Assembly: GCF_006352065.1 (NCBI RefSeq)
Contig: NZ_CP040915.1
Coordinates: 1,550,001-1,614,000 of the forward strand
DNA from: Georgenia yuyongxinii
Lineage (GTDB): Bacteria; Actinomycetota; Actinomycetes; Actinomycetales; Actinomycetaceae
DNA: 64,000 bases
Reading direction: 5' to 3'
Part shown: one piece after another, positions 2,826 to 33,575 of the stretch
Position numbering within the stretch: position 1 is the stretch's first letter
Layout: every line of letters starts with the position of its first letter
The notes under the pieces: model-generated
Seen by the model: only the letters and a program-made list of their open reading frames with translations
Told to the model about the DNA's origin: nothing
Databases searched by the model: none
Translations under genes and position numbers: made by a program

Positions 2826-3467
2826 GTGACGGTCTCGATGAGGGTGATGTCGGCCGGGGACGGCTATGCGTTCTTGCTGCGCTCGGTCGTAACCGGCGAC
2901 GGCCTGGCGTCGCATACCTCTGCACTGTCCCGGTACTACGCCGCGGCCGGCACACCGTCGGGAACCTGGATGGGCGCGGGCGTCACCCAGTTCGGCAAGG
3001 GCGAGCTGCAGGCAGGCATGACCGTCACCCCGGAGCAGCTGCAGGCGCTCCTGGGCTGCGGGTGCGACCCGATGACCGGTGCCGGCCTTGGACGCCCCTA
3101 CCAGCGGTACGCGACCGTGGCGGAGCGCATCGCTGCCCGCGTCGCAGGGATCGACCGGAGCCTGCCCGTCGCGGAGTACGACGCCGAGGTCGCCCGGATC
3201 GAGGCCGATGAGACCACGCGGGGACCGCGCACCTCGGTTGCCGGGTTCGACCTGACGTTCTCGGTGCCGAAGTCCGTCTCGGTGCTGTGGGGCGTGGCCG
3301 ATGCCCACACCCAGGAGCTGATCGTCGAGGGCCCACCATATGGCTGTCGCGCAGGTGTTGGAGTTCTTCGAGCGGGAGGTTGCCGCCACCCGGGTCGGCT
3401 CCGGGGGCGTCGCGCAGGTCGAGGTTCTCGGGGTGGCGGCCGTCGGGGTCTTCCGGATGGGTGGCGT
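2826..3467 (+). pseudogene. TrwC/MobF conjugative relaxase, N-terminal remnant, frameshifted
   Basis: N-terminal part of a MobF-type relaxase (TrwC), the enzyme that nicks and pilots DNA in conjugation. Frame 1 reads MTVSMRVMSAGDGY, then RYYAAAGTPSGTWMG and GFDLTFSVPKSVSVLWG, all typical of actinobacterial TrwC proteins. At the G run 3329-3331 one extra G shifts the frame. The homology continues in the next frame from 3331 (AHHMAVAQVLEFFEREVA) to about 3467 and then stops. Intact TrwC proteins are several times longer and carry a helicase domain, so this is a dead fragment. A GTG at 2826 and an ATG at 2838 are both possible original starts. Confidence 0.85.
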
Positions 3468-3526
3468 GAGAACCTCCATCCTCGGAAGACCTCGACCCCT
3501 ATCGGGCGACCGACGCACCGCCCCTC

Positions 3527-3553
3527 ACTACACCCTCAACTGCGAAGAGCCGC
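3527..3553 (+). mobile_element. Right-end remnant of an ISL3-family element
   Basis: These bases read as the last codons of an ISL3-type transposase (LHPQL, with the usual stop changed to CGA) followed by GAAGAGCC, which matches the right terminal inverted repeat of ISL3-family elements (GGCTCTTC on the other strand). 21 of the first 25 bases match a second such end at 5508-5534. Only the tip remains, so the call rests on this match and on family knowledge. Confidence 0.5.
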
Positions 3554-3622
3554 CAAAGTGGCACACAGGGACTCCTCTCCTATACTTCAAAGCCGAGTAT
3601 TGCGGCTGGAGCACGGCTGAGA

Positions 3623-5101
3623 TCAGCGCGGCTCCAAGCGGTCCTCGCGGGGCACCTCGACGAAGAAGTCCTCTGCCTCCAGACGTTCCCAGATCCGCGC
3701 GTTAATCCGACCGGCGGTATTGATAACCTCGGCGACGTCGTCGAAGACAAACTCGCCGTCACGCAGCTGCCACACACCCTCGGTGAGTACGTTGCGCACC
3801 GACAGTCCATTGGCGTAAAGCAGGAGGTTCAGTGGCTCCGGCGGCACCACACCGACGCCGTGCGGCGCCCCCACGACGTCGATCGAGCACAGGTCGGCGC
3901 GTGCACCTGGGACGAGGCGGCCCAGATCCCGCCGCTCCAGACCCGCCGCAGCGCCGATCGTGGCGGCATGCAGCGCCGTCCAGATCGATGGTCGGTCCAT
4001 CGCCACCGCCGAACGGTCGACGAGGAAATCCGTGCGCGCCCGGCCGTACATCACCGCCAGCTTGATGTTCTCCAGATAGTCCGCCGAGTGCGCGTCGATC
4101 CCGATCGAGGTGTTGACGCCCGCCGCGAGCATCTCAGGCCAGGGGGCGATCCCCGGCGAGACCCCACCGCCGGTAGCGGAAGGCGAGTTGACATAGGTGA
4201 AGTTGTCGCGGGGAAGCAGGTCCAGGTCACGTTCGAGCTCGAGTCCAAGGCAATGAGCGCCGAAGACGGGCGTTCCCGGGTCAAACAAGCCAAGCGCCGC
4301 AAGCCACGGGACCTCATCATTGCCCCATACCCGGCGAAACTGCTCATCCGTCCCCGTCGGGCCACCAGTGAAGCCGGCCTGCAGGTGAATCTGCACACCG
4401 TGGAACCGCTCCGCCGCTTCTCGCACCTGTCGGATCGTTTCGGGCGTGTGCGCGGCACTGGTTCCAACTGCCATCATCGGCCGAAGGAGATCGTCCTCGA
4501 TGGACGCCGCGAAGTCCACGGCGAGCGCAATCTCCGTCTCGGTTTCGGCCGCGGCAGCGCGCAGCACGTGTTGATCAGCGCCCCAGAGTTCCATGATCCG
4601 ATGCATGCCAGGGACCATCGCCGAGGGATAGCCGCGTACGCCGTACCGCCGAGCAACCCGTACGTAGGACTGCATCTGCTTGAGGCTGAGCGACATTTCG
4701 ACATGTGTGGTGCATCCGCCGCGCAACATCCCTAGCACGTTCGCCGCTGTCAGGGCGTCCCGCTCATCGTCGGTAAGCTCTTCGAGGAGCTCCATCGTAT
4801 GCAGGAAGTTGCGGCCGCGGCGGGTGCGGGGATTGCTCTCGACGTAGCCGCGTGTGGAGCTCAGCGCGCCGATGTGGCTATGTCCCGAGATGAAACCTGG
4901 CAAGAGCAGGTGCCCTTCAAGCCAGATCCGGTCGTCGCTGCCGCGCGGATCGGTAGCGGGCCGCACATCCGCAATGACACCCCGATCGATGACCACCTCG
5001 TGGTCGCGGACGAGTTCCAGCCGGTCGTCGGTCGCGGTCAGCACCCAACTCGCGCCGACGATGCGCGGGCCGGCGGTGGAGCGATCGCGGTCTGGGGTCA
5101 T
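3623..5101 (-). CDS. Amidohydrolase, ATZ/TRZ-cytosine deaminase-like
   Basis: Metal-dependent hydrolase of the amidohydrolase superfamily, probably deaminating or dechlorinating a small N-heterocycle or hydrolysing an amide; the substrate is unknown. The metal-ligand pattern is intact: GHSHIG (HxH) near residue 78, QIHLQAG, GAHCLGL and GIDAHSAD. The flanking beta-sandwich is present at both ends (VVIDRGVIADV; GARADLCSIDV). I start at 5101 because AGGAGG lies 7 bases upstream; the frame is open 12 codons further. The gene is less GC-rich than its neighbours and stands alone between transposase fragments, with an ISL3 tail beyond each end. I infer it is cargo acquired with mobile DNA. Length (~492 aa) is normal for the family. 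Confidence 0.85.
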   Translation of the reverse strand: MTPDRDRSTAGPRIVGASWVLTATDDRLELVRDHEVVIDRGVIADVRPATDPRGSDDRIWLEGHLLLPGFISGHSHIGALSSTRGYVESNPRTRRGRNFLHTMELLEELTDDERDALTAANVLGMLRGGCTTHVEMSLSLKQMQSYVRVARRYGVRGYPSAMVPGMHRIMELWGADQHVLRAAAAETETEIALAVDFAASIEDDLLRPMMAVGTSAAHTPETIRQVREAAERFHGVQIHLQAGFTGGPTGTDEQFRRVWGNDEVPWLAALGLFDPGTPVFGAHCLGLELERDLDLLPRDNFTYVNSPSATGGGVSPGIAPWPEMLAAGVNTSIGIDAHSADYLENIKLAVMYGRARTDFLVDRSAVAMDRPSIWTALHAATIGAAAGLERRDLGRLVPGARADLCSIDVVGAPHGVGVVPPEPLNLLLYANGLSVRNVLTEGVWQLRDGEFVFDDVAEVINTAGRINARIWERLEAEDFFVEVPREDRLEPR

Positions 5102-5216
5102 GAGCGGGCCTCCTGCAAGCAAAAGTGCCGGCTCCATGTGCCAGCTGTGACGGACAATCTAGCGAGGTCAAACCCGCGGGAGTGCCGTATCGGACGGCGT
5201 GATCCGTTCGGGTTGC

Positions 5217-5350
5217 TTAGGCGCTCACAGCGGCGGGGATCTCGGCGGTGGTGACCTCTTCGGTTCGCTTACGAGGGTGAGGGGACTTGGCCAGGACTTC
5301 GAGGCCGAAGTAACGGCGGCCTTCTGCCCATCGTCGTGCTGTTCGGCGGC
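5217..5350 (-). pseudogene. IS256-family transposase, C-terminal remnant
   Basis: On the minus strand the last ~40 codons of a mutator-type (IS256) transposase are readable: WAEGRRYFGLEVLAKS, then a basic tail and the TAA at 5217-5219. The preceding EQHD segment is one frame off, so a single base has been lost at the D-E-W junction. Everything N-terminal, including the DDE catalytic core, is gone. The fragment lies immediately upstream of the amidohydrolase gene and could have brought in promoter activity, but no promoter is evident. Confidence 0.7.
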
Positions 5351-5364
5351 GGCGACATTAGGGC

Positions 5365-5534
5365 TTCGATCGGCTCGGGACATCGGATGGGCCAACCGAG
5401 GCCATGAACGGTCGCCTCGAGCACTTCCGAGGCTCCGCCCTCGGGTACCGCGACCTCATCAACTACATCGGACGGTCGCTGCTCGAGGCCGGCGGATTCA
5501 GAACCCGACTACACCCTCGATTCTGAAGAGCCCC
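5365..5534 (+). pseudogene. ISL3-family transposase C-terminus with right inverted repeat
   Basis: The + strand reads GTSDGPTEAMNGRLEHFRG, then SALGYRDLINYIGRSLLE, then a GGFRTRLHPRF end and TGA at 5524-5526. This is the conserved C-terminus of actinobacterial ISL3 (IS1096/IS1165-like) transposases. It is followed by GAAGAGCC, the expected right terminal repeat. The DDE catalytic region is absent. A matching right end lies at 3527-3553 in the same orientation, so the amidohydrolase sits between two ISL3 right ends. Confidence 0.75.
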
Positions 5535-5855
5535 TTTGGCTCCGCCGCCGCCTCGTTTGGGTGAGTTGTCTTCGAGGCCAGGACCCTGCGTTGGTCCTGA
5601 GTTCGGTCATTCGGGAGCCCAAGGCGGTCCGTTGCTGCGGATGACCCAGGGCTCGGTAGAGTTGCCGATGGTGGGCATGTTGCCCACTCGAGATCAAGAC
5701 GTGACCGTCAGGGTCTCGCCACCTCCGTCTCGGCGGGGGAGCGCACACGTGCCCGATTCCCCCATGGTTCCCCCACAGCCTCCCGGCTCACATTGGCTTG
5801 CAGGTCAGGGCGGGTACGCACAGTTCAACGTCTGACCCGTCTGGCTCGTCCGCCC

Positions 5856-5888
5856 CGCGAGATGTCATCTTCTCCGCGAGATGTCATC
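5856..5888. repeat. Dispersed intergenic repeat, copy 1
   Basis: A 14-base unit CGCGAGATGTCATC occurs twice in direct orientation (5856-5869 and 5875-5888), separated by TTCTC. The same arrangement recurs at 19603-19634, and in reverse complement as part of a hairpin at 21586-21641. All three copies are in non-coding DNA just beyond gene 3' ends. Function is unknown; a REP-like element or a protein-binding site are both possible. Confidence 0.75.
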
Positions 5889-5909
5889 GGTGTGCGCCGC
5901 GGCGCGGGC

Positions 5910-6782
5910 TCAGAGCTGCGGCGCGGCGAAGGTGTCGCACGCGGCCATCGTGCCCTGCTCATAGCCCGTGGTGAACCACTGCACCCGCTGCTCGGCCGCG
6001 CCGTGGGTCCAGGTCTCAGGGTTGACCTCTTGCCCGGCGCCGGCCTGGATGCGGTCATCGCCCACTGCGGCGGCCGCGTCGATCGCATCCGTGACCTGCT
6101 CGCGCGTCGGCGGCTGGATGAACGTCACGCCCGAGTCCGGGTCGACGACGTTCGCGGCCTGTCCGACCCACAGCCCGGCGTAGCAGTCCGCCTGCAGCTC
6201 CAGCCGGACGCCGTCGGACTCGGGGCCGGTGCCCTGCCGGTCGATGGTGGCCATCGTGCCCTGCTGGTTCTGGATGTGATGGCCCCACTCGTGGGCGACG
6301 ATGTACATCTGTGCCAGCGGCGCGTTCTCCGCACCCAGCTGCGTCTCGAGCTGGTCGAAGAACCCGATGTCGAGGTAGACCGAGGCGTCCGGCGGGCAGT
6401 AGAACGGGCCGACGGCGGCGGTGGCGTTGCCGCACCCGGTCGAGACGCTCTGCTCGAAGACCCAGAAGTCGGGCTGCTGGTACGCGATCCCGGTCTGGTC
6501 GGGCAGCGCCGCGCCCCAATACTGGTCCAGCGCGTCCGCCGTGAAGAGCATCCGGCAGTCGGTGAACTCGTTGGCGTCGGCGCCGGTGCGGCAGTGCTCG
6601 AAGGACCCCTGTTCCGCGGTGGGCTGCTCACCGCCCTCGAGGACGCCGGAGACGTCCTGGCCGGTGAAGAGATAGATCAGCAGTGCCACGATGCCCAGGC
6701 CGCCACCCCCGACGGCGATGCCCCGTCCGCGTGAACGGCCCACCCGCCCGGTGTCGGCACGCACGCCCTCGTTGAACGTCAT
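5910..6782 (-). CDS. Neutral zinc metallopeptidase (YpfJ/KPN_00183-type)
   Basis: Membrane-anchored zinc peptidase of the neutral zinc metallopeptidase family (PF04228). A short N-terminal cytoplasmic segment rich in Arg/Gly is followed by one transmembrane helix (GIVALLIYLF, ~res 30-40), so the catalytic domain should face outward. The zinc motif HEWGHH begins near residue 164, and the third ligand region LELQADCYAGLW lies ~40 residues later. Four cysteines in the external domain could form disulfides. The start at 6782 (MTFNEG) gives 290 aa, the usual length; the frame is open further upstream but that part overlaps the divergent phosphotransferase gene. Physiological substrates are not known for this family. 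Confidence 0.88.
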   Translation of the reverse strand: MTFNEGVRADTGRVGRSRGRGIAVGGGGLGIVALLIYLFTGQDVSGVLEGGEQPTAEQGSFEHCRTGADANEFTDCRMLFTADALDQYWGAALPDQTGIAYQQPDFWVFEQSVSTGCGNATAAVGPFYCPPDASVYLDIGFFDQLETQLGAENAPLAQMYIVAHEWGHHIQNQQGTMATIDRQGTGPESDGVRLELQADCYAGLWVGQAANVVDPDSGVTFIQPPTREQVTDAIDAAAAVGDDRIQAGAGQEVNPETWTHGAAEQRVQWFTTGYEQGTMAACDTFAAPQL

Positions 6783-6904
6783 GGGCAGAACGTAGCCTCG
6801 GCGCGTCGCACGTGCCCGTCGCACGCCGCGGCGCCAGGCTTCCCGTGCGGGGTCGGCGAACGTCCCGGCCGGTCGTGAGCACCGGGCCGGAGGAAGGAGA
6901 GCGC

Positions 6905-7783
6905 ATGGCCGACAAGCCCGCTGCCGAGGTAGCCGTCGACGAGGCACTGGTCGCACGGCTCCTCGCCGACCAGCACCCGGACCTCGCCGCACGCCCGTTG
7001 CGCCTGGTGGCCAGCGGCTGGGACAACGCGATCGTCCGGGCGGGGGAGGACCTCGCCGTGCGCGTGCCGCGCCGCGCGGCCGCCGCCGACCTGATCCGCC
7101 ACGAGCAGCGGTGGCTACCGGTGCTGGCCCCGCGCCTGCCGGTGGATACCCCGGTCCCGCTGCGCCACGGGGAACCGACGGCATACTTCCCGTGGGCGTG
7201 GAGCGTGACCCCGTGGCTGCCGGGGACGACGGCGGCCGTCCTCGCCGCGGGGGAGCGACGGCCGCTGGCGGAGCCGCTCGCCGCGTTCGTCACTGCGATG
7301 CATCGGCCCGCCCCCACGGACGCCCCGCACAACCCGGTGCGCGGTGTGCCGCTGCGCGGACGACACGACGCCGTGCGAGAGCGGCTCGGCTCGGGGCTCG
7401 TGCCCGAGGCGGACCGTGTTCTCACCCTCTGGGAGGACCTCAGCCGCGCACCGGCCTGGACCGGACCGCCGCTGTGGCTGCACGGCGACCTTCACCCCGC
7501 GAACATGCTCGTCCGCGACGGCGTCCTGACCGCCGTCCTCGACTTCGGCGACCTCACTGCCGGAGACCCGGCCACCGACCTGGCCACCGCCTGGCTCACG
7601 TTCGACGCCCCCGGCCGCGACTCCTTTGCCCGCGCCCTGGCCGGGGCCTACGACGAGGCGACCTGGCGCCGCGCCCGTGGCTGGGCGCTGTCCCTGGCGA
7701 CGGCGCTGCTCGCGCACTCCGACGACGTGCCGCTGCTGCGCGCGGTGGGTGAGCACACCCTGCGCGAGGTGCTCGGAGGCTGA
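6905..7783 (+). CDS. Aminoglycoside phosphotransferase-family kinase
   Basis: Small-molecule kinase of the APH/choline-kinase fold (PF01636). Visible signatures are the glycine-poor N-lobe SGWDNAIVRAG with the Val-Arg Lys-equivalent region LAVRVPRR, the catalytic loop LHGDLHPANML near residue 200, and the metal-binding DFGDLTAGDPATDLA. The ATG at 6905 is preceded by AGGAAGGAGA and gives 292 aa. Such genes are common in actinomycetes and most do not confer resistance; the substrate here is unknown. A hairpin at 7780-7835 starting at the stop codon probably ends the transcript. Confidence 0.87.
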   Translation: MADKPAAEVAVDEALVARLLADQHPDLAARPLRLVASGWDNAIVRAGEDLAVRVPRRAAAADLIRHEQRWLPVLAPRLPVDTPVPLRHGEPTAYFPWAWSVTPWLPGTTAAVLAAGERRPLAEPLAAFVTAMHRPAPTDAPHNPVRGVPLRGRHDAVRERLGSGLVPEADRVLTLWEDLSRAPAWTGPPLWLHGDLHPANMLVRDGVLTAVLDFGDLTAGDPATDLATAWLTFDAPGRDSFARALAGAYDEATWRRARGWALSLATALLAHSDDVPLLRAVGEHTLREVLGG

Positions 7784-7835
7784 CGACGGACGCCCGGCTG
7801 CGCCGTCGGGCATGACGCTCTCGGTCCGTCGTCAG
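7780..7835 (+). terminator. Nested inverted repeat after phosphotransferase gene
   Basis: A perfect 12-base inverted repeat (7780-7791 with 7824-7835, arm CTGACGACGGAC) encloses a smaller stem (GCCCG...CGGGC). It overlaps the stop codon of the phosphotransferase gene and precedes the ABC-F promoter region. There is no U tract, as is common for actinobacterial terminators. Confidence 0.55.
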
Positions 7836-7940
7836 ACGTGTCGAACCTGGCAGAACCGGGCGAAGCGGACCGCCGTACACTGGAACGGCGCGTCCCGGCG
7901 TGCTCCCCACTCTCCTGAGCCATGTCTTGAGGTCTGCCCT

Positions 7941-9554
<1,614 letters not shown>

Positions 9555-9589
9555 GACCTGGCCCGGCTCGACCTGGGGGCTGGTCGGCC

Positions 9590-10567
9590 TCAGTCCCGCT
9601 CGACCTCCGGCCCGGCCGCCTCGATGACCCGGTCGCGACCCTGTTGCTCGGCCGGGTCCAGCCGCGCGCCGGACCCACCGGACACGCCGGACCCACCGGG
9701 CAGCGCAGTCGTTGCCCGCAGCTGCTGGTAGACCTCCAGGTCCTCCTCGAACTCCGCCCGGCTGAGCGTGCGCACCGGGCCGCGGCCGGAGCGGTCGGCG
9801 GCCTCGCGCCGGGCGAGGACCACCACGGCGCCGAGCGCCGCGACCGAGAACAGCCCCCACTGAATCGTGTACGACAGGTTCATCCCGTAGTTGAAGGCGG
9901 GCCGTGCGTACCCGCCCAGCGGCTGCGGCGGCGCAGGAGACTCCTTCGCGGCGAGCACGTGCCCGTCGAGCACGGGCAGGCCGGCCACCTCGGTCAGGTC
10001 CGTCACCTCCGCGGCGGAGGCGAGCACCTCCTCGGGCGCGAGCGTGTACATCTGCCCGGTGGGACGGGCGCGACCCGCGGGGTCCTCGGCGAGGCGGAGC
10101 CGTCCGGTCAGCCGCACCTCGCCGGACGGCGGCGCCGGCAGGTCGGCGCCGAGCTCGTCCGCGCGGTCGGCCGCGATCCAGCCGCGGTCGACCACCACGA
10201 CCAGGCCGTTCCCGCCGCCGCCCGAGGCCACGAACGGGGTCACCAGGTGGGCGGCGGCGTTGCCGTCCACCGGGCGGTTGCGCAGCACCACGGTGGCATC
10301 GTCGACGTAGTGGCCGGTGAGCTCGACGGGCCGCCACTCGTCCCCGGGCCGCACCGTCAGCGTGGGGAGCGCCTCCATCAGCGGCTCGGGTGAGGCGTCG
10401 TAGACGGCGTTGACCTGCCGGGAGTCGGCCGAGCGTTCCTCGAACCGGCTCCACTGCCACCGGCCGAGGAGCACGCACGCGAGGGAGACGGCCACCATCA
10501 ACGCGATCAGGCTGAGCCAGCGAGGAGTGGTGAGGAAGGCGTAGCGACCGGTCGTCGGCGCGCTCAC
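9590..10567 (-). CDS. SURF1-like cytochrome oxidase assembly protein
   Basis: Membrane protein of the SURF1 family, which helps assemble aa3-type cytochrome c oxidase. Two terminal transmembrane helices bracket an extracytoplasmic domain: an N-terminal one at ~res 16-35 (LSLIALMVAVSLACVLLGRWQW) and a C-terminal one near 240-255 (GLFSVAALGAVVVLA). Conserved SURF1 patterns are visible: LGRWQWSRFEER, DRGWI near residue 128, and NYGMNLSYTIQWGLF before the second helix. The C-terminal ~60 residues are a variable cytoplasmic tail. The GTG start overlaps the stop of the upstream small gene (GTGA). Last gene of the DUF3099-small protein-SURF1 operon. Confidence 0.9.
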   Translation of the reverse strand: MSAPTTGRYAFLTTPRWLSLIALMVAVSLACVLLGRWQWSRFEERSADSRQVNAVYDASPEPLMEALPTLTVRPGDEWRPVELTGHYVDDATVVLRNRPVDGNAAAHLVTPFVASGGGGNGLVVVVDRGWIAADRADELGADLPAPPSGEVRLTGRLRLAEDPAGRARPTGQMYTLAPEEVLASAAEVTDLTEVAGLPVLDGHVLAAKESPAPPQPLGGYARPAFNYGMNLSYTIQWGLFSVAALGAVVVLARREAADRSGRGPVRTLSRAEFEEDLEVYQQLRATTALPGGSGVSGGSGARLDPAEQQGRDRVIEAAGPEVERD

Positions 10568-10809
10568 CCGTGCGACTCGTCGAGCTCGTCCACGCCGACC
10601 ACCTCGCGCAGGAACGACCGGGCCGTTAGGAACTGTGAAAGGTGCTCACGGTGAGCCTCACAGGCCAGCCACACCTTGCGGCGGCCCTCGGTGTGCAGGC
10701 GCGGGTTGTTCCACAGCAGCGCGTGCACCGCTCGCTCGCCGCAGCCCTTGGCGCTGCAGGCGAGCTGCCCGACGTCGCGCACGTAGGGCAGGGCGGCGTC
10801 CGGGCTCAT
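10564..10809 (-). CDS. Small conserved Cys/His protein of unknown function
   Basis: 81-residue protein with LACSAKGCGERAVHALLWNNP and, later, VWLACEAHREHL. The spaced Cys-Cys and Cys-His pairs suggest a small metal-binding (zinc-ribbon-like) fold, which is inference. Its ATG overlaps the stop of the DUF3099 gene (ATGA), and its own stop overlaps the SURF1 start, so all three are translationally coupled. I recognise it only as a gene usually found beside SURF1 and DUF3099 in actinomycetes. No membrane segment is visible. Confidence 0.8.
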   Translation of the reverse strand: MSPDAALPYVRDVGQLACSAKGCGERAVHALLWNNPRLHTEGRRKVWLACEAHREHLSQFLTARSFLREVVGVDELDESHG

Positions 10810-25622: not shown

Positions 25623-27547
25623 GCGGCCACGGTCCCATGGGGCGCGGGCCCGTCGTCGCGCCCGGCCAGAAGTCGATGAACTTCGGCCCGTCGCTGCGCC
25701 GGCTCCTGCGCAGCCTCGTCCCGGAGCGGGCGAGGCTCGTCGCCGTCGTCGTGCTTGGCACCGCCTCGGTGGCCCTGTCGGTGCTCGGCCCCAAGATCCT
25801 CGGCGACGCCACCAACATCGTCTTCAACGGCGTCGTCGGCCGTACGCTGCCCGCCGGGCTCACCAAGGAGCAGGCCGTCGAGGGGTTGCGGGCAGCCGGC
25901 CAGGGCAGGGTCGCGGACATGGTCTCCGGCATGGACGTGGTGCCCGGGCAGGGCATCGACTTCACCGCGCTGCAGACCACCGTGCAGGTGGTGCTGGTGG
26001 TGTACGTCCTCGCCGCCATCTTCCTCTGGCTGCAGGGCCGGATCCTCGCCGGCGTCGTCCAGCGCACCGGATTCCGGATGCGCGAGGACGTCCAGGCGAA
26101 GATCGACCGCCTCTCCCTCGGGCACCTGGACGGCCAGCCCCGCGGCGACGTGCTGTCCCGGGTGACCAACGACATCGACAACGTCACCCAGAGCCTCCAG
26201 CAGACCCTCTCCCAGCTCGTCACCAGCCTGCTGACGGTGCTCGGTGTGCTCGTGATGATGTTCGTGCTGTCCTGGCAGCTCGCCCTCATCGCGCTGGTCA
26301 CGGTGCCGGTCTCGGCCGCCCTGACCATGGTCATCGCCAAGCGCGCCCAGCCGCACTTCGTCCAGCAGTGGGCCTCCACCGGCAAGATGGGCGGGCACGT
26401 CGAGGAGGCGTTCACCGGCCACGACCTCGTCACCGCGTTCAACGCCCAGGACAGCTTCAGCAAGACCTTCGAGGCCGAGAACGACCAGCTCTACCGGGCC
26501 AGCTTCCGGGCACAGTTCATCTCCGGGACGATCATGCCGGTGATGAGCTTTGTCTCGAACCTCAACTACGTGCTGGTCGCCGTCGTCGGCGGCCTGCGGG
26601 TGGCCTCCGGTGCGCTCACCCTCGGCGAGGTGCAGGCGTTCATCCAGTACTCCCGCCAGTTCAGCCAGCCGCTGGCGCAGCTGGCGTCGATGGCCAACCT
26701 CGTCCAGTCCGGGGTCGCCTCCGCGGAGCGCATCTTCGAGCTGCTCGACGCCCCGGAGGAGATCCCCGACCCCGTGCCGAGCGCCCGCCCGGCCGAGGTG
26801 CGCGGCCGGGTCGAGTTCGCCGGCGTGAGCTTCCGTTATGACCCCGAGGTCCCGCTCATCGACGACCTCGACCTGGTGGCCGAGCCCGGGCAGACGGTCG
26901 CCATCGTCGGGCCCACCGGCGCGGGGAAGACCACGCTGGTCAACCTGATCATGCGGTTCTATGAGATCGACGGCGGGCGCATCACCCTCGACGGCGTCGA
27001 CACGGGCGAGATGACCCGCCAGGACCTGCGCGACCGGATCGGGATGGTCCTGCAGGACACCTGGTTGTTCCAGGGCACCATCGCCGAGAACATCGCCTTC
27101 GGCCGCACGGACGCCACCGAGGACGAGGTCCACGCGGCCGCCCGGGCCACCAGCGTGGACAGGTTCGTCAGCTCCCTGCCCGACGGGTACGGCACCGTCA
27201 TCGACGAGGAGGGCGGCGGCGTCTCCGAGGGCGAGAAGCAGCTCATCACCATCGCCCGCGCGTTCCTGGCCGACCCGCAGATCCTCATCCTCGACGAGGC
27301 GACGAGCTCGGTGGACACCCGCACCGAGGTGCTCGTGCAGCAGGCCATGGCACAGCTACGCCGCGGCCGCACCAGCTTCGTCATCGCCCACCGGCTGTCC
27401 ACCATCCGTGACGCGGACCTCATCCTCGTCATGGAGCACGGCCGCATCGTCGAGCAGGGCACCCACACGGAGCTGCTCGCGGCCGGCGGGGCGTACGAGC
27501 AGCTCTACGACGCCCAGTTCGCGGCGCCCGCCGTCGAGCAGGCCTGA
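25619..27547 (+). CDS. ABC exporter half-transporter B (catalytic Glu present)
   Basis: Partner of the preceding half-transporter. A membrane domain with a large insert between helices 1 and 2 (~res 65-120) is followed by the nucleotide-binding domain. Walker A GPTGAGKTT lies near residue 431, a non-canonical signature VSEGEKQ near 535, and Walker B ILILDEATSSVD with the catalytic Glu intact. The pairing of a canonical signature plus missing Glu in A with a degenerate signature plus intact Glu in B predicts one hydrolytic and one inert ATP site, as known for heterodimeric exporters. Translationally coupled to A through ATGA. Confidence 0.92.
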   Translation: MSGHGPMGRGPVVAPGQKSMNFGPSLRRLLRSLVPERARLVAVVVLGTASVALSVLGPKILGDATNIVFNGVVGRTLPAGLTKEQAVEGLRAAGQGRVADMVSGMDVVPGQGIDFTALQTTVQVVLVVYVLAAIFLWLQGRILAGVVQRTGFRMREDVQAKIDRLSLGHLDGQPRGDVLSRVTNDIDNVTQSLQQTLSQLVTSLLTVLGVLVMMFVLSWQLALIALVTVPVSAALTMVIAKRAQPHFVQQWASTGKMGGHVEEAFTGHDLVTAFNAQDSFSKTFEAENDQLYRASFRAQFISGTIMPVMSFVSNLNYVLVAVVGGLRVASGALTLGEVQAFIQYSRQFSQPLAQLASMANLVQSGVASAERIFELLDAPEEIPDPVPSARPAEVRGRVEFAGVSFRYDPEVPLIDDLDLVAEPGQTVAIVGPTGAGKTTLVNLIMRFYEIDGGRITLDGVDTGEMTRQDLRDRIGMVLQDTWLFQGTIAENIAFGRTDATEDEVHAAARATSVDRFVSSLPDGYGTVIDEEGGGVSEGEKQLITIARAFLADPQILILDEATSSVDTRTEVLVQQAMAQLRRGRTSFVIAHRLSTIRDADLILVMEHGRIVEQGTHTELLAAGGAYEQLYDAQFAAPAVEQA

Positions 27548-27603
27548 CGACCGTCCGGCCACGGGAGTCCGGCGCGCCGCCGTGGGTGCGGGATCATGAC
27601 CCC

Positions 27604-28470
27604 GTGCCCCTGATCCGTATCACCGACCCCGCAGACGAGCGCCTGGCCGACTACACGAACCTGACCGACGTCGCCCTGCGTTCGCGGCACGAGCCGGAGA
27701 AGGGCCTGTACATCGCGGAGAGTGCCAACGTCATCCGCCGCGCCACCGGGGCCGGGCACCGGCCCCGCTCCTTCCTCATGGCCGAGAAGTGGCTCGAGTC
27801 GATGGCACCGGTCATCGCCGCGTCGCCGGGCAGCGGGGGAGTGGCCGACGGCGGCACGGACGTGCCCGTGTTCGTCGCCGAGGAGTCGGTGCTCCGTGCC
27901 GTCATCGGCTACAACCTGCACCGTGGGGCGTTGGCCGCCATGCACCGCCCGCCACTGGCCGGGGTGCGGGAGCTGCTCGAGGGCGCTCGCGGCGGGGCGG
28001 GCGCCCGGCGGGTGGCGATCCTCGAGGACATCGTGGACCACACCAACGTCGGTGCCATGTTTCGGAGCGCGGCCGGGCTCGGCGTGGACGCGGTGCTCGT
28101 CACGCCGCGCTGCGCCGACCCGCTCTACCGGCGCTCCGTGCGCGTGTCGATGGGCACCGTGTTCCAGGTGCCGTGGACCCGGCTGACCACCTGGCCCGAG
28201 GGGATCGAGAAGCTGCACGCCATCGGGTTCACCGTGGCGGCGTTGGCGCTCGCGGACGACTCCGTCGGCCTCGACGACTTCGCGGCGTCCGACGCCGTCC
28301 GCGCCCCCGGTTCTCGGGTGGCGCTGGTGCTGGGCGCCGAGGGCGACGGGCTGGCACGCAGCACCGTCGAGGCCGCGGACGTGGTGGTGCGCATCCCGAT
28401 GTCCGGCGCGGTGGACTCGCTCAACGTGGCCGCGGCGTCCGCCGTCGCCTTCTGGGCGACCCGAGTTTGA
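27604..28470 (+). CDS. TrmH/SpoU-family RNA 2'-O-methyltransferase
   Basis: SPOUT-class S-adenosylmethionine-dependent methyltransferase modifying a ribose in rRNA or tRNA. The N-terminal substrate-binding domain includes RSRHEPEKGLYIAESANVI. The trefoil-knot motifs are ILEDIVDHTNVGAMFRSAAG near residue 140, LVLGAEGDGLARS and IPMSGAVDSLNVAAASAVAF at the C terminus. I favour the GTG at 27604; an in-frame start at 27586 is also open. Its last 165 bases are repeated, diverged and frameshifted at 29793-29956, with a mobile cassette between, so the present C-terminus may itself be imported. Confidence 0.9.
   Translation: MPLIRITDPADERLADYTNLTDVALRSRHEPEKGLYIAESANVIRRATGAGHRPRSFLMAEKWLESMAPVIAASPGSGGVADGGTDVPVFVAEESVLRAVIGYNLHRGALAAMHRPPLAGVRELLEGARGGAGARRVAILEDIVDHTNVGAMFRSAAGLGVDAVLVTPRCADPLYRRSVRVSMGTVFQVPWTRLTTWPEGIEKLHAIGFTVAALALADDSVGLDDFAASDAVRAPGSRVALVLGAEGDGLARSTVEAADVVVRIPMSGAVDSLNVAAASAVAFWATRV
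28306..28470 (+). repeat. Direct repeat, trmH 3' end, left copy
   Basis: The last 165 bases of trmH match 29793-29956 with about a dozen substitutions and one deletion (roughly 92% identity by eye). The longest perfect run is 48 bases, 28410-28457 against 29896-29943. The 1.3 kb between the copies is foreign-looking. This is the layout left when an element integrates in a gene's 3' end and restores it with its own copy. Confidence 0.9.
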
Positions 28471-28485
28471 AGCCGCACACGACTC

Positions 28486-29040
28486 TTAAGCCGTCTTCCG
28501 TCGGCGGGTCCGTTTGGCTGACTTCGTTACACCGATCAGATCATTGATCACTTCAAGCATCATGAGCGTCCTCTCTGGCGCGTCATCCAGTAGCCGATGC
28601 GCACGAGGATTTCTCCATGCGCCTATGACGCCTTGACACAGTTGCATGTGGCCACGTTGGGCACTCTCATCGCTTTTGGTTCTACCGGAGTTGATCCGCA
28701 GGATTGGATTCGAGGGGGAGAAGACTACCGTCATGAGGCCGTCACCATCTTCATGTCGACCGCTGAGCGAGCGTACACATTCGTTGAGTGTCTTCACTGC
28801 AGCCTCAACTGCGTCAGCATAGTGCTGCGAGACGAACCGTGACCGTGTTGCCTGACGGAGATCGGTATCCGTAATGCGGTTATCGAAGTCGGGCAGCAGT
28901 TCCCCACCCGGATGCAGAGTGGGCACCTGTTCGGCAGGAGGTTCGTCGTTCTCAAACGTGGGACTGGCGTACTCAGCTAGTTCACTGCCGAGGCGGACGG
29001 CTAGCCGTATCGGAGTTTTCCAGTAATCGACCCCCGTCAT
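28486..29040 (-). CDS. TIGR02391 (Ymh-type) HEPN-like protein
   Basis: 184-residue protein matching the TIGR02391 family of predicted HEPN-fold RNases. The conserved core LRQATRSRFVSQHYADAVEAAVKTL (res 61-85) is followed by the HEPN RX4H motif RNPRAH at residues 143-148, preceded by QLCQGVIGAW and followed by LMMLEVINDLIG. The tail is basic (KRTRRRKTA). HEPN proteins are often RNA-cleaving toxins in defence systems; that role is inferred here. The ATG overlaps the stop of the upstream DUF5343 gene (ATGA). The gene is clearly less GC-rich than its surroundings and lies in an insertion in trmH, which indicates recent transfer. Confidence 0.8.
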   Translation of the reverse strand: MTGVDYWKTPIRLAVRLGSELAEYASPTFENDEPPAEQVPTLHPGGELLPDFDNRITDTDLRQATRSRFVSQHYADAVEAAVKTLNECVRSLSGRHEDGDGLMTVVFSPSNPILRINSGRTKSDESAQRGHMQLCQGVIGAWRNPRAHRLLDDAPERTLMMLEVINDLIGVTKSAKRTRRRKTA

Positions 29041-29723
29041 CGCTGATAGAGATGCTTCGCCATACTCGCGAAGATCTGATCGATCTGCTCGCCGTCCGCC
29101 GTCGCAGGGATGTGGATTTGGATGTCTAGGTGCACCACAGGTTGAGTTCCTTGCCCAGCGGGCGGGACCGGACCAGTTGCGTCCGGGACGTCGACCATCG
29201 AGGCGTGTGGTTGTTTCGGTGACCCGTCACCGGTTATTGGCGCCTTTCGGCTCGCCTTCCTGGGCCCGTTCTTCTTCGAATCCCCTCCCGTTGGCGGCTC
29301 GGTGGGACTCTTGTCAGCGATCAGGGCGTACGTGGCTGCCATAGACGCGGCGTTTGACCCCCCAAAACCCTTGTGCTGGAGCCAGGTCGCGATCCGTGCC
29401 TTGTCCGGCTCGCCTGCAGGTGTCGTCAATGCCGCGAGGTCTCCTGGGTAGACCTCGTCGAGGATTTCCTGGCAAGCATCGGCATACGTGGAGTCGATTC
29501 TCCACTTGTTACCGCGCTCCGTAAGCGTGCCATCTTCTTCCAGTAGCCCTAACTTCTTGAGCGGTGAGACGACGTTGTCCTGAGCGCTCCTTGGACCTGA
29601 CATGTCGAGGAGGGCTGCGACTGTAGCTGGTGTGAACTTCGTGGAGGGTGCGGCCGAGGCACGAGCCCGTAGGACTTTCCAAGCTTTAGCAGGCACCTTC
29701 GGGTAGGCGTTGGAAGTCGCCAT
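29037..29723 (-). CDS. DUF5343 family protein, winged-helix-like
   Basis: 228-residue protein, first gene of the trmH-island operon. The N-terminal ~80 residues (AYPKVPAKAWKVLRARA; PATVAALLDMSG; VVSPLKKLGLLEEDG; LTERGNKWR) match DUF5343. The pattern of short helices, then LGLLEEDGTLT as a wing, suggests a winged helix that could bind DNA. A low-complexity Ser/Lys/Pro linker (~res 140-190) leads to a conserved C-terminal element VVHLDIQIHIPATADGEQID, then QIFASMAKHLY. GGAGA lies 5 bases before the ATG but is inside an inverted repeat (29729-29753). It is probably the regulator or antitoxin-like partner of the HEPN protein; this is inference. Confidence 0.72.
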   Translation of the reverse strand: MATSNAYPKVPAKAWKVLRARASAAPSTKFTPATVAALLDMSGPRSAQDNVVSPLKKLGLLEEDGTLTERGNKWRIDSTYADACQEILDEVYPGDLAALTTPAGEPDKARIATWLQHKGFGGSNAASMAATYALIADKSPTEPPTGGDSKKNGPRKASRKAPITGDGSPKQPHASMVDVPDATGPVPPAGQGTQPVVHLDIQIHIPATADGEQIDQIFASMAKHLYQR

Positions 29724-29728
29724 TGGGT

Positions 29729-29753
29729 TCTCCGTTCAGTGGGTTAACGGAGA
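29729..29753 (-). promoter_or_regulatory. Inverted repeat covering the DUF5343 ribosome binding site
   Basis: TCTCCGTT (29729-29736) and AACGGAGA (29746-29753) are exact reverse complements with a 9-base loop. On the minus strand the 3' arm contains the GGAGA that serves the DUF5343 ATG. A folded mRNA would mask this signal; the DNA dyad could equally be an operator for a self-regulating winged-helix protein. A TAGTAT -10-like element lies just upstream (29751-29756 region). Confidence 0.6.
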
Positions 29754-29792
29754 TACTAGATCCAAACTCTCGTCGTCCGGGCTCAGACGTGT

Positions 29793-29956
29793 CCCGGCTC
29801 TCTTGTCGCGCTGGTGCTGGGCACCGAGGGGACGGGCTGGCACGCAGCACCGTCGAGGCCGCGGACGTGGTCGTGCGCATCCCGATGGCCGGCGGGGTGG
29901 ACTCGCTCAACGTGGCCGCGGCGTCCGCCGTCGCCTTCTGGGCCACGCGGGCCTGA
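29793..29956 (+). pseudogene. Decayed second copy of trmH 3' end
   Basis: Carries the TrmH C-terminal sequence (RSTVEAADVVVRIPMAGGVD then SLNVAAASAVAFWATRA) in the reading frame after a one-base loss in the GAGGGGAC run near 29829. Upstream codons are out of frame and truncated. This is the displaced original, or an att-like copy, left at the far edge of the inserted cassette. From 29957 to 30134 I see no gene; GTG/ATG frames there have no domain match. Confidence 0.85.
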
Positions 29957-30134
29957 GCGCCCGGTATCGACTGTGCCGACAACGGCCGTCGCGTCGTCCT
30001 GAGCAATTCAGGCGGCCGAGCTGGAGCCGCGTGGCACGATCCAGGCTCAGAGCTTCCGCGCGGGACCGATGAACGCCCGGGTCGGCGGAGGTCTCTCCAT
30101 CCGCGCAAGACGGCCGAGCAGACGGAGCCAGCAC

Positions 30135-30782
30135 ATGACACGGACCCGCATCCACAACCTTTCCATCTCGCTGGACGGGTTCGCCACCGGCGTCGGCCAG
30201 GCATCCGAAGCACCCATGGGCCACGCCGGCCAACGGCTGCACGAGTGGATGATCGCCACCCGCTTCGGCGCCCCGATCATGGGACGCGAGGGCGGCACCC
30301 TCGGCGTCGACGACGCCTTTGCCCAGCAGCACGAGCCCGGCATCGGCGCCGAGATCATGGGTGCGGGCAAGTTCGGCCCACCTGGCTGGCAGGACGACGC
30401 CGACTGGCAGGGGTGGTGGGGTCCGAACCCCCCGTTCCACACGCCGACCGTCGTGCTGACCCACCGCCCGCGACCCTCGATCGAGATGGAGGGTGGCACC
30501 ACCTTCCACTTCCTCGACGCCGCACCGGCCGAGGCGCTCGACGCCGCCCGTGGGCTGGCCGACGGACGGGACGTCCGCATCGGCGGTGGTCCGACCGTCG
30601 TGCGCGACTTCCTCGCCGCAGGCCTGGTCGACCACATGCACCTGGTCCAGGTGCCGATCGTGCTCGGCCGTGGTGTCCGTGTGTGGGACGGACTGGAGGC
30701 GCTGGAGGAGGACTACGAGATCGAGGCCGTCTCGGCGCCCAGCGGGGTCACCCACCTGACCTTCGACCGGAAGACCTCGTGA
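30135..30782 (+). CDS. Dihydrofolate reductase-family (RibD C-terminal) protein
   Basis: NAD(P)H-dependent reductase fold of the DHFR/RibD-C superfamily. It opens with RIHNLSISLDGFATG (substrate region), has APIMGREGG, PTVVLTHRPRPSIEMEGG, the cofactor-binding DVRIGGGPTVVRDFLAAGLV and the C-terminal HLVQVPIVLGRGVRVW. 215 aa. ATG at 30135 with GGAG upstream. Such stand-alone proteins are abundant in actinomycetes and their substrates are usually unknown. It is not a housekeeping FolA. Confidence 0.88.
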   Translation: MTRTRIHNLSISLDGFATGVGQASEAPMGHAGQRLHEWMIATRFGAPIMGREGGTLGVDDAFAQQHEPGIGAEIMGAGKFGPPGWQDDADWQGWWGPNPPFHTPTVVLTHRPRPSIEMEGGTTFHFLDAAPAEALDAARGLADGRDVRIGGGPTVVRDFLAAGLVDHMHLVQVPIVLGRGVRVWDGLEALEEDYEIEAVSAPSGVTHLTFDRKTS

Positions 30783-30844
30783 CGAGGGCGTGTCGCGAAA
30801 CCCGGCATCTGCTGCACGAGGCACGGCACGCACCCTGACGGCGC

Positions 30845-31237
30845 TCAACCGCGCGGAGGCCGGATGGTGAAGGACAGGGAGTCAGGCACATCGAGGAGTC
30901 CCAGGAGCTCCCGGACCAGCGGCGGCGCCCAGGCCACAGTGGGGTCGTGGACCAGACGGGGCTCGGCCAGCTCGACCCGGCGGCCGCGTGTCGTGATCCA
31001 GCAGCCACCCGCGGCGAGCACGTTGCGCACCCAGTCCGCTTCGCGCCCGTAGGTCAGCGCAACCCGGTAGCCCGGGCCGGCACGGAAGATGTTGACCACG
31101 GCGCTGTGCTCACGACCGCTGCGGCGGCCCACGTGGGTCAGCACGGCGAAGCCGGGCAGGCGCGGGGCGACCAGGCCCATGACCCTGTTCAGCACCAGCC
31201 GGTTCGCCCGCCCGAGCCATCGCGGCAAGGGGCTCAT
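30845..31237 (-). CDS. Deazaflavin (F420)-dependent nitroreductase-family protein
   Basis: 130-residue split-barrel protein of the DDN/FDOR family. The pattern VLTHVGRRSGREHSAVVNI, then YRVALTYGREADWVRNVLAAG and CWITTRGRRVELAEPRLV, is typical of small F420-binding reductases. I use the ATG at 31237 (MSPLPRWLGR); the frame extends 24 codons further upstream. Binding of F420 is inferred from the family. It is divergent from the MmcQ/YjbR gene. Confidence 0.82.
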   Translation of the reverse strand: MSPLPRWLGRANRLVLNRVMGLVAPRLPGFAVLTHVGRRSGREHSAVVNIFRAGPGYRVALTYGREADWVRNVLAAGGCWITTRGRRVELAEPRLVHDPTVAWAPPLVRELLGLLDVPDSLSFTIRPPRG

Positions 31238-31332
31238 CCGCGGCCTCCCGTCTGCGTCTGAAGGCGCCGGCCACGGCCGTGTCGGTACCGCGCCGTACGC
31301 TGGCCGCACGGCCCGACCGAGAGGTGGCGAGG

Positions 31333-31776
31333 ATGGCCCACCCGACGATGTTCCACGACGCCGATCCCTACCTTGCCCTGCTGCGCACCATCGCGCTGGC
31401 CTTCCCGGAGGCCGAGGAGGTGGTCTCGCACGGCCGGCCGAACTTCCGTGTGCGGAAGGTCTTCGCCGTCTATGGCTCCGGCACCAAGGGTCCCGCGGCG
31501 ACGCGGGTGAGGTACGACCACGGTCTGGTGGTGCTGCCCGAGGAGTCCGAGCGGCCGGCGCTGGTACAGGACCCGCGGTACTTCGTCCCTGCGTACCTGG
31601 CGCCCTCGGGGTGGATCGGCGTCGACCTGACCGCTCGGGGCCGCGACGGTCCCGACGATGTGGACTGGGACGAGGTCGCCGAGCTCCTCGACGGCTCCTA
31701 CCGGCAGGTCGCCGGTCCGCGGCTCGTCACCCGGCTCGACGCCGAGGGCGGCCCGGCGGCGCACCGACGCCGCTGA
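31333..31776 (+). CDS. MmcQ/YjbR-family protein
   Basis: 147-residue protein of the MmcQ/YjbR-like family (PF04237). Family signatures are ALAFPEAEEVVSHGRPNFRV near residue 16, KVFAVYG and GWIGVDLTARG, ending in a helical WDEVAELLDGSYRQVA. The fold resembles DNA-binding CyaY-like proteins, but no biochemical role is certain. ATG at 31333 after GGCGAGG. It stands alone between divergent and convergent genes. Confidence 0.85.
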   Translation: MAHPTMFHDADPYLALLRTIALAFPEAEEVVSHGRPNFRVRKVFAVYGSGTKGPAATRVRYDHGLVVLPEESERPALVQDPRYFVPAYLAPSGWIGVDLTARGRDGPDDVDWDEVAELLDGSYRQVAGPRLVTRLDAEGGPAAHRRR

Positions 31777-31844
31777 CGCCGACGCTGCCAACGCCCGCGT
31801 CCGAGGACCGGGCCGCCCCGGACGAACGCGTCAGGACGATCGCG

Positions 31845-33575
31845 TCAGCGCGCCGGCAAAGTGGCGCAGTCCAGCTGCGAGCGGCCGTTCAGCTCGTGGC
31901 GCACGTGGTTGCGGGCGTGGGCGACGGCGGCGGAGATGTCGTGGAAGTAGTGCAGCTCACCGATCGCGGCCAGCACGCCCACCGCGCCGGCCACCCGCAG
32001 CTGGCGGGCGTCGAGACCCTTGAGCAGCACCGTGATCCCGCGTCGCTGGAGGCTGGTGACGATCTCGGTCAGGGCGTTGGCGCCGGAGGCGTCCATCATG
32101 CGCACGTCCGTCAGGGCCAGGATGATCACGTGCACGTGCTTGACGCTGGTGAGCTCGTCGAGAAACTGCTTCGTGCCACCGAAGAAGAGGGCACCGTGGA
32201 AGCGGTAGACGGCGATGTGCTCGTGCAGCAGCGCATCCTCCTCGGCCGCGTCGAGCTCGGGCACACCCTCCCGGCGGAGCCCGGAGACACGGGACATCGC
32301 CCGCAGTGCCAGGAAGGCCGCGACCGCGACGCCCGCCTCCACCGCGACCACGAGGTCGAACACGATCGTCACGGCGACCGTCACGACGAAGACCAGACCG
32401 TCCGACCGGGTCGACCGCAGGATGGAACGGGCCGTGCCCAGGTCGATCATGCGCACGGCGGTGACGATGAGCACCCCCGCCAACGCGGCGGTCGGGATGA
32501 GCGCCACCACTGGCGTCGCGAGCAGCACCACGGCCACGAGGACGACGGCGTGGCTCGCCGAGGCCACCCGGGTCCGGGCGCCGGCGCGCACGTTGACGGC
32601 GGTCCGGGCGATGGCCCCGGTGGCCGGCATGCCGCCGAAGATGCCGCTGGCGATGTTGGCCAGGCCCTGCCCGACGAGCTCGCGGTCGGCCTGGGTGTTC
32701 GGGACCTCCTCGACCATGCCGTCGGCCACGCGCGCGGAGAGCAGGCTCTCCAGCGCCGCCAGTGCGGCAATGGCCAGGGCGGCGGGGAACAACGCGGCGA
32801 TCGCCTCGTTGTCCCAGGCCGGGAACGTGGGGGAGGGCAGCGAGGCAGGCAGCTCGCCGATGCGGGCCACCGGCAGGTCCGCTACCTCGGCCACCACCGT
32901 GACGGCGGCGACGGCGATCAGCGAGCCGGGCAGCGAGCGGCGGATCCGGGCGAGCACGAGCATCAGGACGATGGCACCGACCGTGAGCATCAAGGGCACG
33001 GTGGCCACCGACCAGTCCGCGACCCGCAAGGTCGACACCGCCACGAGGGCGGCGTTCTCGCCGTCGGGCTTGGGCACGTCCAGGGCGAGGGGCACCTGCT
33101 GGAGAAAGATGATCACCCCGATGCCCAGGGTGAAGCCCTCGACCACGGGCCAGGGGATGACCGAGACGAGCCGGCCCATGCCCACCAGACCCATGACGAC
33201 GACGAGCAGCCCGGCCAGGATCGAGAGTGCGAAGACCGCCTCGGGGCCGTAGCGGGCGACGACGGGCACGAGCACCACAGTCATCGCACCGGTGGGGCCG
33301 GAGACCTGCAGGTGCGAGCCGCCGAAGACGGCGGCCACGAACCCTGCGACGATCGCGGTGACCAGCCCCGCGGCGGCGCCAACCCCAGACGCGACTCCGA
33401 AGCCGAGAGCGAGCGGGAGCGCCACGATACCGACCGTGACGCCCGCGATGAGGTCGCGACGCCACGAGCGCGGGAGCTCGGCGTAGTCGCTGCGGCGCGG
33501 TACCAGCAGGCCGGCGGCGTGCCGCGCCGCACTGCGCCAGGTCAGGCGCGGTTGGAGTGCGGGGATGGCGCTCAT
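31845..33575 (-). CDS. SulP-family anion permease with STAS domain
   Basis: SLC26/SulP transporter. The first ~420 residues are membrane-spanning with signatures GVTVGIVALPLALGFGVASG, GSHLQVSGPTGAMTVVL and GGMPATGAIARTAVNVRAGA. The C-terminal ~130 residues form a STAS domain (FHGALFFGGTKQFLDEL; ILALTDVRMMDASGANALTE). The transported anion may be sulfate, bicarbonate or a dicarboxylate; the sequence does not decide. The start overlaps the stop of the upstream ArsR gene (ATGA), so the two are one operon under the regulator. Confidence 0.92.
   Translation of the reverse strand: MSAIPALQPRLTWRSAARHAAGLLVPRRSDYAELPRSWRRDLIAGVTVGIVALPLALGFGVASGVGAAAGLVTAIVAGFVAAVFGGSHLQVSGPTGAMTVVLVPVVARYGPEAVFALSILAGLLVVVMGLVGMGRLVSVIPWPVVEGFTLGIGVIIFLQQVPLALDVPKPDGENAALVAVSTLRVADWSVATVPLMLTVGAIVLMLVLARIRRSLPGSLIAVAAVTVVAEVADLPVARIGELPASLPSPTFPAWDNEAIAALFPAALAIAALAALESLLSARVADGMVEEVPNTQADRELVGQGLANIASGIFGGMPATGAIARTAVNVRAGARTRVASASHAVVLVAVVLLATPVVALIPTAALAGVLIVTAVRMIDLGTARSILRSTRSDGLVFVVTVAVTIVFDLVVAVEAGVAVAAFLALRAMSRVSGLRREGVPELDAAEEDALLHEHIAVYRFHGALFFGGTKQFLDELTSVKHVHVIILALTDVRMMDASGANALTEIVTSLQRRGITVLLKGLDARQLRVAGAVGVLAAIGELHYFHDISAAVAHARNHVRHELNGRSQLDCATLPAR

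Follow-up and report, generated by a model that had tools for sequence, protein, structure and literature searches.

A low-GC two-gene HEPN cassette at the end of an RNA methylase gene in Georgenia yuyongxinii belongs to a widespread modular family with a shared C-terminal tail

Introduction

The HEPN cassette described here lies in a 64,000-nucleotide stretch of Georgenia yuyongxinii DNA (contig NZ_CP040915.1, positions 1,550,001 to 1,614,000; hereafter the window, in whose coordinates all window positions are given), and consists of a gene A followed by a HEPN gene B. Its closest catalogued relative is PDC-M34, a candidate system for which PADLOC-DB holds the models PDC-M34A and PDC-M34B and whose prefix stands for phage defence candidate. 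Other systems come close in part. Hma, defined elsewhere (PMC8565338), is a DUF499-centred, Type-1 BREX-related system often accompanied by HEPN proteins, which are regarded as back-up effectors; BrxA is a tandem helix-turn-helix DNA-binding part (PMC12839542). PD-lambda-3 has been employed as an abortive control (PMC13190303) and classed among PD(D/E)XK systems (PMC10952713). The Ymh family (PF09509) was described in a 2013 survey of HEPN proteins as motif-conserved, occurring solo or fused to pMORC, AbiJ-NTD1 or AbiTii, and found in operons with restriction-modification genes; the passages of that survey dealing with the family name these solos and fusions and no tail-bearing partner gene (PMC3710099). 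In the literature that we searched, the names DUF5343, TIGR02391 and PDC-M34 are absent, Hypoth_Ymh occurs in a single paper, no pPIWI-RE with HEPN and winged helix was found, and a modular sensor-tail-HEPN scheme is not described, which is no proof that it is unpublished.

The window pair shares with PDC-M34 its two-gene order, A then HEPN, and the match of protein A to PDC-M34A (E 1.4e-14, residues 1-225). Five pairs with Swt1-like partners (L046, L093-L096) carry a tail related to that of A, and one of them, L046, is an adjacent DUF5343 and Swt1-like HEPN pair that matches both PDC-M34A and PDC-M34B. Protein B of the window, in contrast, belongs to TIGR02391 and has no PDC-M34B match at E 1. 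The pair is therefore a PDC-M34 variant with another HEPN effector family, not a strict member. A previous reading of the letters (the sequence-only reading) knew of no characterised system with this composition; this needs narrowing in view of the PADLOC-DB candidate models, while the difference in effector family stands. The B model of PD-lambda-3 matches window B over the HEPN region (E 1.5e-15), but it is longer (270 positions, of which 133-249 are matched), and PD-lambda-3 gave no match to window A at E 1. From HEPN-MNT (MntA-HepT) the pair differs in its partner, which matches DUF5343 and models as a winged-helix/tail protein rather than a nucleotidyltransferase. One relative pair is embedded in an Hma operon; in the window, HEPN forms a protein by itself, next to a partner modelled as a winged-helix protein.

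We find that the pair is a widespread modular HEPN system, probably related to defence, in which the tail of A tracks the partner gene more than the N-terminal type of A. The known part is the PDC-M34 candidate; the new parts are the shared, swappable tail and a trading place at the end of a trmH-type gene. On balance, we lean towards reading the cassette as a stand-alone sensor-RNase abortive-infection defence module with swappable parts (RNase, ribonuclease).

Protein B is a HEPN protein and protein A carries a conserved tail

The two genes and their parts are as follows.

29037..29723, minus strand: gene A, DUF5343-like/PDC-M34A-like protein of 228 aa, predicted sensor or regulator
29304..29714, minus strand: N-terminal domain of A (residues 4-140), winged-helix/BrxA-like arrangement in the structure model, weak matches
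29142..29291, minus strand: linker of A (residues 145-194), predicted local distance difference test (pLDDT) <50 in the model, probably disordered
29040..29141, minus strand: C-terminal tail of A, conserved, residues 195-228, modelled with a helix at 211-226
28486..29040, minus strand: gene B, TIGR02391/Hypoth_Ymh HEPN protein of 184 aa, predicted RNase effector
28966..29019, minus strand: isolated N-terminal helix of B (residues 8-25), with a low-confidence linker to the HEPN domain in the model
28597..28614, minus strand: RNPRAH (RX4H) motif, residues 143-148 of B
29729..29753, minus strand: perfect inverted repeat with 8-base arms and a 9-base loop, immediately upstream of A and overlying the likely ribosome-binding site

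Protein B is a member of the HEPN superfamily (Ymh/TIGR02391). It matched Pfam Hypoth_Ymh (E 1.2e-26, 93.4 bits against a cut-off of 25) and TIGR02391 (E 6.7e-21, 74.7 bits against 39.45), and its predicted structure has the HEPN fold. Residues R143, N144, P145, R146 and H148 were invariant in 10 out of 10 aligned sequences, and R-X4-H was present in all 16 members of the TIGR02391 partner cluster described below. The sequence-only reading had named both the TIGR02391 core and the RNPRAH motif, and had made its case depend on a HEPN fold and on conservation of the RX4H residues; all of this was borne out. B is predicted to be an RNase effector. Its matches in mobile collections came from 2 phage and 93 plasmid records, with 26-38% identity among the matches listed, and no relatives of B were found in viral contigs.

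The match of protein A to Pfam DUF5343 (E 3.6e-4, 21.3 bits) fell short of the curated cut-off of 27, and this was its only Pfam match at E 1. Its structure model aligned with winged helices; the BrxA-like matches were weak. Sequence searches gave no relatives among solved structures, one returning nothing and another two matches at E >0.4. The last ∼34 residues form a tail common to A-type proteins (HIDIQIHI…EQIDQIF.SMAKHLY). Searches for A covered plasmids and viral contigs, those for the tail phages as well, and none of them returned a match. A DUF5343 N-terminus and an LDIQIHIP-type tail had been noticed previously, and both are present, with the qualifications that the DUF5343 match stays under its cut-off and that the tail is not DUF5343-specific: proteins with unrelated N-terminal parts carry it, and it goes with the effector. 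The N-terminal helix of B could be where this tail docks. A shared N-terminal helix of B proteins as a general docking site was considered and dropped, being seen by eye and through a weak profile match, with a shuffle test that was not specific. Profile-profile comparison of the partner families gave no convincing match across HEPN.

Some of these properties would also suit a classical toxin-antitoxin pair, in which A would be antitoxin and autorepressor and B a constitutively harmful HEPN RNase, the whole being self-maintaining and defence incidental. A comes first and overlaps B translationally, the best structural matches of the B model include HEPN toxins of such pairs, and the winged-helix-like fold of A is combined with the 8-base inverted repeat upstream, an arm of this length occurring in 1.3% of shuffles. 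The repeat is, however, not a feature of the family, as only 5 of 35 upstream regions, including that of the window, have an arm of at least 7. We consider this explanation rather unlikely, while noting that it is compatible with, and not exclusive of, the defence reading.

The pair recurs in distant phyla

A first set of relatives was obtained by a pattern scan of one genome per species, using the window protein and its nearest relative as queries. This gave 19 loci, in 10 of which only residues from 146 onward aligned. The full A-type set comprises 42 genes, namely those of the window and of a congener (G004), plus 40 others, one of which (L051) is frame-shifted. We set aside L049, a PDC-M34A match without tail or HEPN neighbour, and L103, a 22-residue match at 3e-4 judged to be due to chance. 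A B candidate adjoined the A-type gene directly downstream in 39 of the 42; the remaining three A-type genes lay at contig ends or before a transposase-like gene. The gene pair recurs in distant phyla, and pairs of DUF5343 and TIGR02391 type, whose conservation beyond close relatives the sequence-only reading had put forward as a check, are among those that reach them. A profile of the tail found one copy each in all 13 genomes already known to carry it; in four phylum samples, counted with their centre genomes, it marked 9 of 350, 7 of 299, 5 of 149 and 4 of 198 genomes, and of these final four we judged one to be chance.

In the nearest relative (L050/L051:5001-5663), gene A is frame-shifted in its N-terminal part, with tail and B open, reflecting either decay or a sequencing error.

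The tail follows the partner more closely than the N-terminal type

By BLAST, the N-terminal parts of the A-type proteins fell into four clusters: a 'WW.LR' form that includes the window and canonical DUF5343 (n = 33), L059/L062/L084/L089, L061/L063 together with the G004 protein, and the singleton L088. The N-terminal types N1-N5 used below are our own assignments, N1 and N2 being one BLAST cluster divided by the tree; L068, truncated at its 5′ end, was assigned no type. One A protein (L058:5001-6712) has two sensor-like domains in tandem and a single tail, followed by a TIGR02391 partner.

The 39 partners formed six clusters by BLAST linkage: TIGR02391 (16), DUF4145-like (13), Swt1-like (5), RNECAH (3; L045/L047/L097) and two singletons. 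Pfam (E 0.01) assigned them to Hypoth_Ymh (16), DUF4145 (12), HEPN_Swt1 (5), HEPN_SAV2148 (3), DUF5677 (2) and a pPIWI-associated nuclease model (1), and PADLOC recognised PDC-M34B in 5. The two schemes are not interchangeable: 'DUF4145-like' names the BLAST cluster of 13, whereas the 12 Pfam DUF4145 matches include L034 and L047. In a separate family search, L045 had no match and L047 a weak one to DUF4145, which leaves a SAV2148 label for the RNECAH cluster without support. The DUF4145-like cluster has an invariant H and no RX4H. The variety spans four N-terminal clusters, once with two sensor-like domains in tandem, and, among the predicted effectors, five HEPN-like clusters plus the pPIWI-associated nuclease.

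The best tree of 30 A proteins required 7 changes of partner type (least possible 3; shuffled mean 15.0). Within the starred branch bearing the window's form, there were 7 TIGR02391 and 5 DUF4145-like pairs, and on the starred branches alone, each of these two partner types must have been gained or lost twice. In L059 and L060, the tails are almost the same and the B proteins much alike, but the N-terminal parts are unrelated. Globally, mean tail identity was 0.562 between A proteins with the same partner and different N-terminal types, against 0.385 between those with the same N-terminal type and different partners (0 of 2000 shuffles). When the 19 pattern-scan loci were left out, the values were 0.420 and 0.342 (83 of 2000 shuffles) for 20 rows, of which 15 had been found by the tail profile.

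The tail might be a general docking plug of ∼34 residues that connects interchangeable winged-helix sensors to interchangeable nuclease effectors. The family would then be a combinatorial immune family, with PDC-M34 as one corner and modules traded via the methylase 3′ end in the genus Georgenia; we put this forward tentatively. Such a scheme would unite PDC-M34, the TIGR02391 pairs and the DUF4145-like pairs around one shared connector that can be tested, and would hint at what the DUF5343 architecture does. Should the tail act as a docking plug, searches with the tail alone could reveal new sensors and nucleases of bacterial immunity. The occurrence of the same tail and partner with different N-terminal domains also speaks against the toxin-antitoxin explanation, as it suits changing sensors better than one antitoxin function.

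Two different cassettes occupy the 3′ end of one methylase gene

A and B, both on the minus strand, overlap by 4 bases and span about 1.3 kb; B ends 15 bases from the stop codon of a methylase gene on the opposite strand. They are the only long, non-overlapping open reading frames (ORFs) in 28471-29792, and no integrase or transposase was found among the ORFs of this segment. The GC (guanine plus cytosine) content of the cassette is 0.589, against 0.721 for the window, a value as low being reached in 0.08% of overlapping 1.33-kb tiles. On recheck, the coordinates, strand, ATGA overlap, motif, low GC and composition reported previously were all correct. We found no promoter-like site at the cassette, terminators only at chance level, and no RNA family in 27500-30100. 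The cassette is flanked by the following features.

27586..28470, plus strand: intact SpoU/TrmH-family RNA methylase gene, 294 aa, the insertion target
28306..28470, plus strand: 3′ end of the intact methylase gene, duplicated downstream
29793..29949, plus strand: second, frame-shifted copy of the methylase gene's 3′ end

The methylase gene matched the Pfam SpoU family (E 1e-33) and reached no NCBIfam equivalog cut-off, so that its exact target is not assigned. Its second 3′ copy is 93% identical to 28306-28463, with one single-base deletion breaking the frame, which agrees with the intact and decayed copies of the sequence-only reading. In seven of the eight congeners (G001, G002, G003, G005, G006, G007 and G008), there was neither a second copy nor any trace of a cassette of this type, and the next gene that they have in common with the window followed within about 0.7 kb, except in G002, where a high-GC gene fills 1.9 kb. 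The eighth, G004 (L034:4220-6535), has a different two-gene cassette at the same place and in the same orientation, again with a four-base overlap, a second 3′-end copy of 420 bases and a larger partner with an RNAADH motif. In its A-type protein, the N-terminal form is connected through BLAST with those of L061 and L063, and the end is tail-like, as named by eye. The sister species G008, which lacks a cassette at trmH, carries, ∼20 kb along the contig from its methylase gene, a divergent DUF5343 and TIGR02391 pair (L044:1372-2552).

Because two different insertions occur at one gene end, the methylase 3′ end appears to be a preferred insertion site. Of the enrichment at trmH ends that had been suggested for checking, what is seen is a repeated site inside this genus, where two of nine genomes are occupied; among the matches listed from 213 genomes of the family, there were no other nearby second copies. 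Integration at a single att site was considered and rejected as the simple model, since the duplicated end measures ∼157 bases in the window against 420 in G004 and there is no integrase; recombination through the methylase gene's own homologous end may underlie the arrangement. For the window, 8 of 9 relatives are closer to the downstream than to the upstream copy. At the 12 aligned positions where the copies differ, the relatives' commonest base is found downstream in 6, upstream in 3 and in neither (as counted) in 3, and at the 5 positions on which at least 7 of the 8 relatives agree, downstream leads upstream by 4 to 1. Judged from this comparison, the upstream 3′ end was probably imported together with the cassette. 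In G004, the last 190 bases compared with the nearest sister, G002, gave 15 matches for the upstream and 14 for the downstream copy; against other congeners, the upstream copy matched more often (20 vs 9). No comparable flanking direct repeats were found at 17 other loci, with short ones in L063 and L066 (35 and 54 bases).

In three Anaerolineae records (L064, L065 and L067), the pair lies directly behind a metH-like (methionine-synthase-like) gene, identified by eye and with 70-78% mutual identity between the three, perhaps another preferred gene end.

The missing mobility gene and these metH-like neighbours could also be taken to mean that both proteins have ordinary regulatory or housekeeping roles and that the cassette is a passenger of some larger element, now decayed. 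The low GC content argues against this, as does the patchy presence of the genes: the PDC-M34A model matched in 6 of the 396 genomes from the phylum and in none of 14 controls, and among the family's 213 genomes, 2 have a relative of A, one of them being the genome of the window. As, in addition, a single site in this genus has received two different such cassettes and relatives elsewhere have restriction or defence genes nearby, we regard this explanation as highly improbable.

Some relatives lie among defence genes

From 105 flanking ORFs listed at first for the 19 loci, some were dropped or replaced; we compared the resulting 94 with PADLOC in bulk, and 10 chosen proteins (two from L045) singly; the scan had no matched control and gives context, not enrichment. 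In L052 (Moorella stamsii, 1324-10653), the pair sits within an Hma operon, in a run HmaA-A-B-HmaB-HmaC (E 4.6e-168, 3.1e-121 and 7.8e-65). A second HmaA, 58% identical to the L052 gene, overlaps the start of A in L061. Furthermore, a type II restriction enzyme and methylase are found near L054, a TIR gene near L057, and a nicking endonuclease and methylase near L045. No PADLOC match was obtained for three of the 10 singly scanned proteins, which are neighbours in L051, L053 and L062. Of the defence neighbourhood that the sequence-only reading had suggested for checking, there are thus cases at L045, L052, L054, L057 and L061, near or inside restriction or defence genes.

The location of the pair, flanked by HmaA and HmaB in L052 and preceded by an HmaA-like gene in L061, raises the question of whether the pair is an auxiliary or back-up effector of larger restriction-like systems (Hma/BREX-related or restriction-modification), active only with them, much like the HEPN back-up effectors of DUF499-centred systems (PMC12839542). 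HmaA was, however, found in only 2 of the 94 flanking proteins scanned. Neighbours of the window pair in 26000-32500, read by eye only, included no recognisable Hma gene, and likewise by eye none was recognised beside the G004 pair, so that action in trans would be required. We consider such dependence improbable.

A proposed course of action

For the favoured reading, a stand-alone defence module, we infer the following course. Protein A would read foreign or damaged DNA through its winged-helix domain, perhaps in a BrxA-like manner, and a disordered linker would tie this domain to the short C-terminal tail, which would dock on B. B, a putative HEPN RNase, would be kept inactive, or held in place, through A. 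Infection would change the A-B complex, upon which the HEPN dimer would cut RNA, phage growth would stop and the cell would be lost. Modularity would follow from keeping the tail-effector connection while sensors and effectors are exchanged. The cassette itself would have entered by insertion at the methylase 3′ end, leaving the gene intact and a second 3′ copy behind.

A second low-GC patch in the window

The window's other low-GC patch is occupied by a broken N-terminal fragment (2826-3620), which by eye we take to be of a MobF/TrwC-like relaxase, and by a convergent amidohydrolase-like gene (3623-5137).
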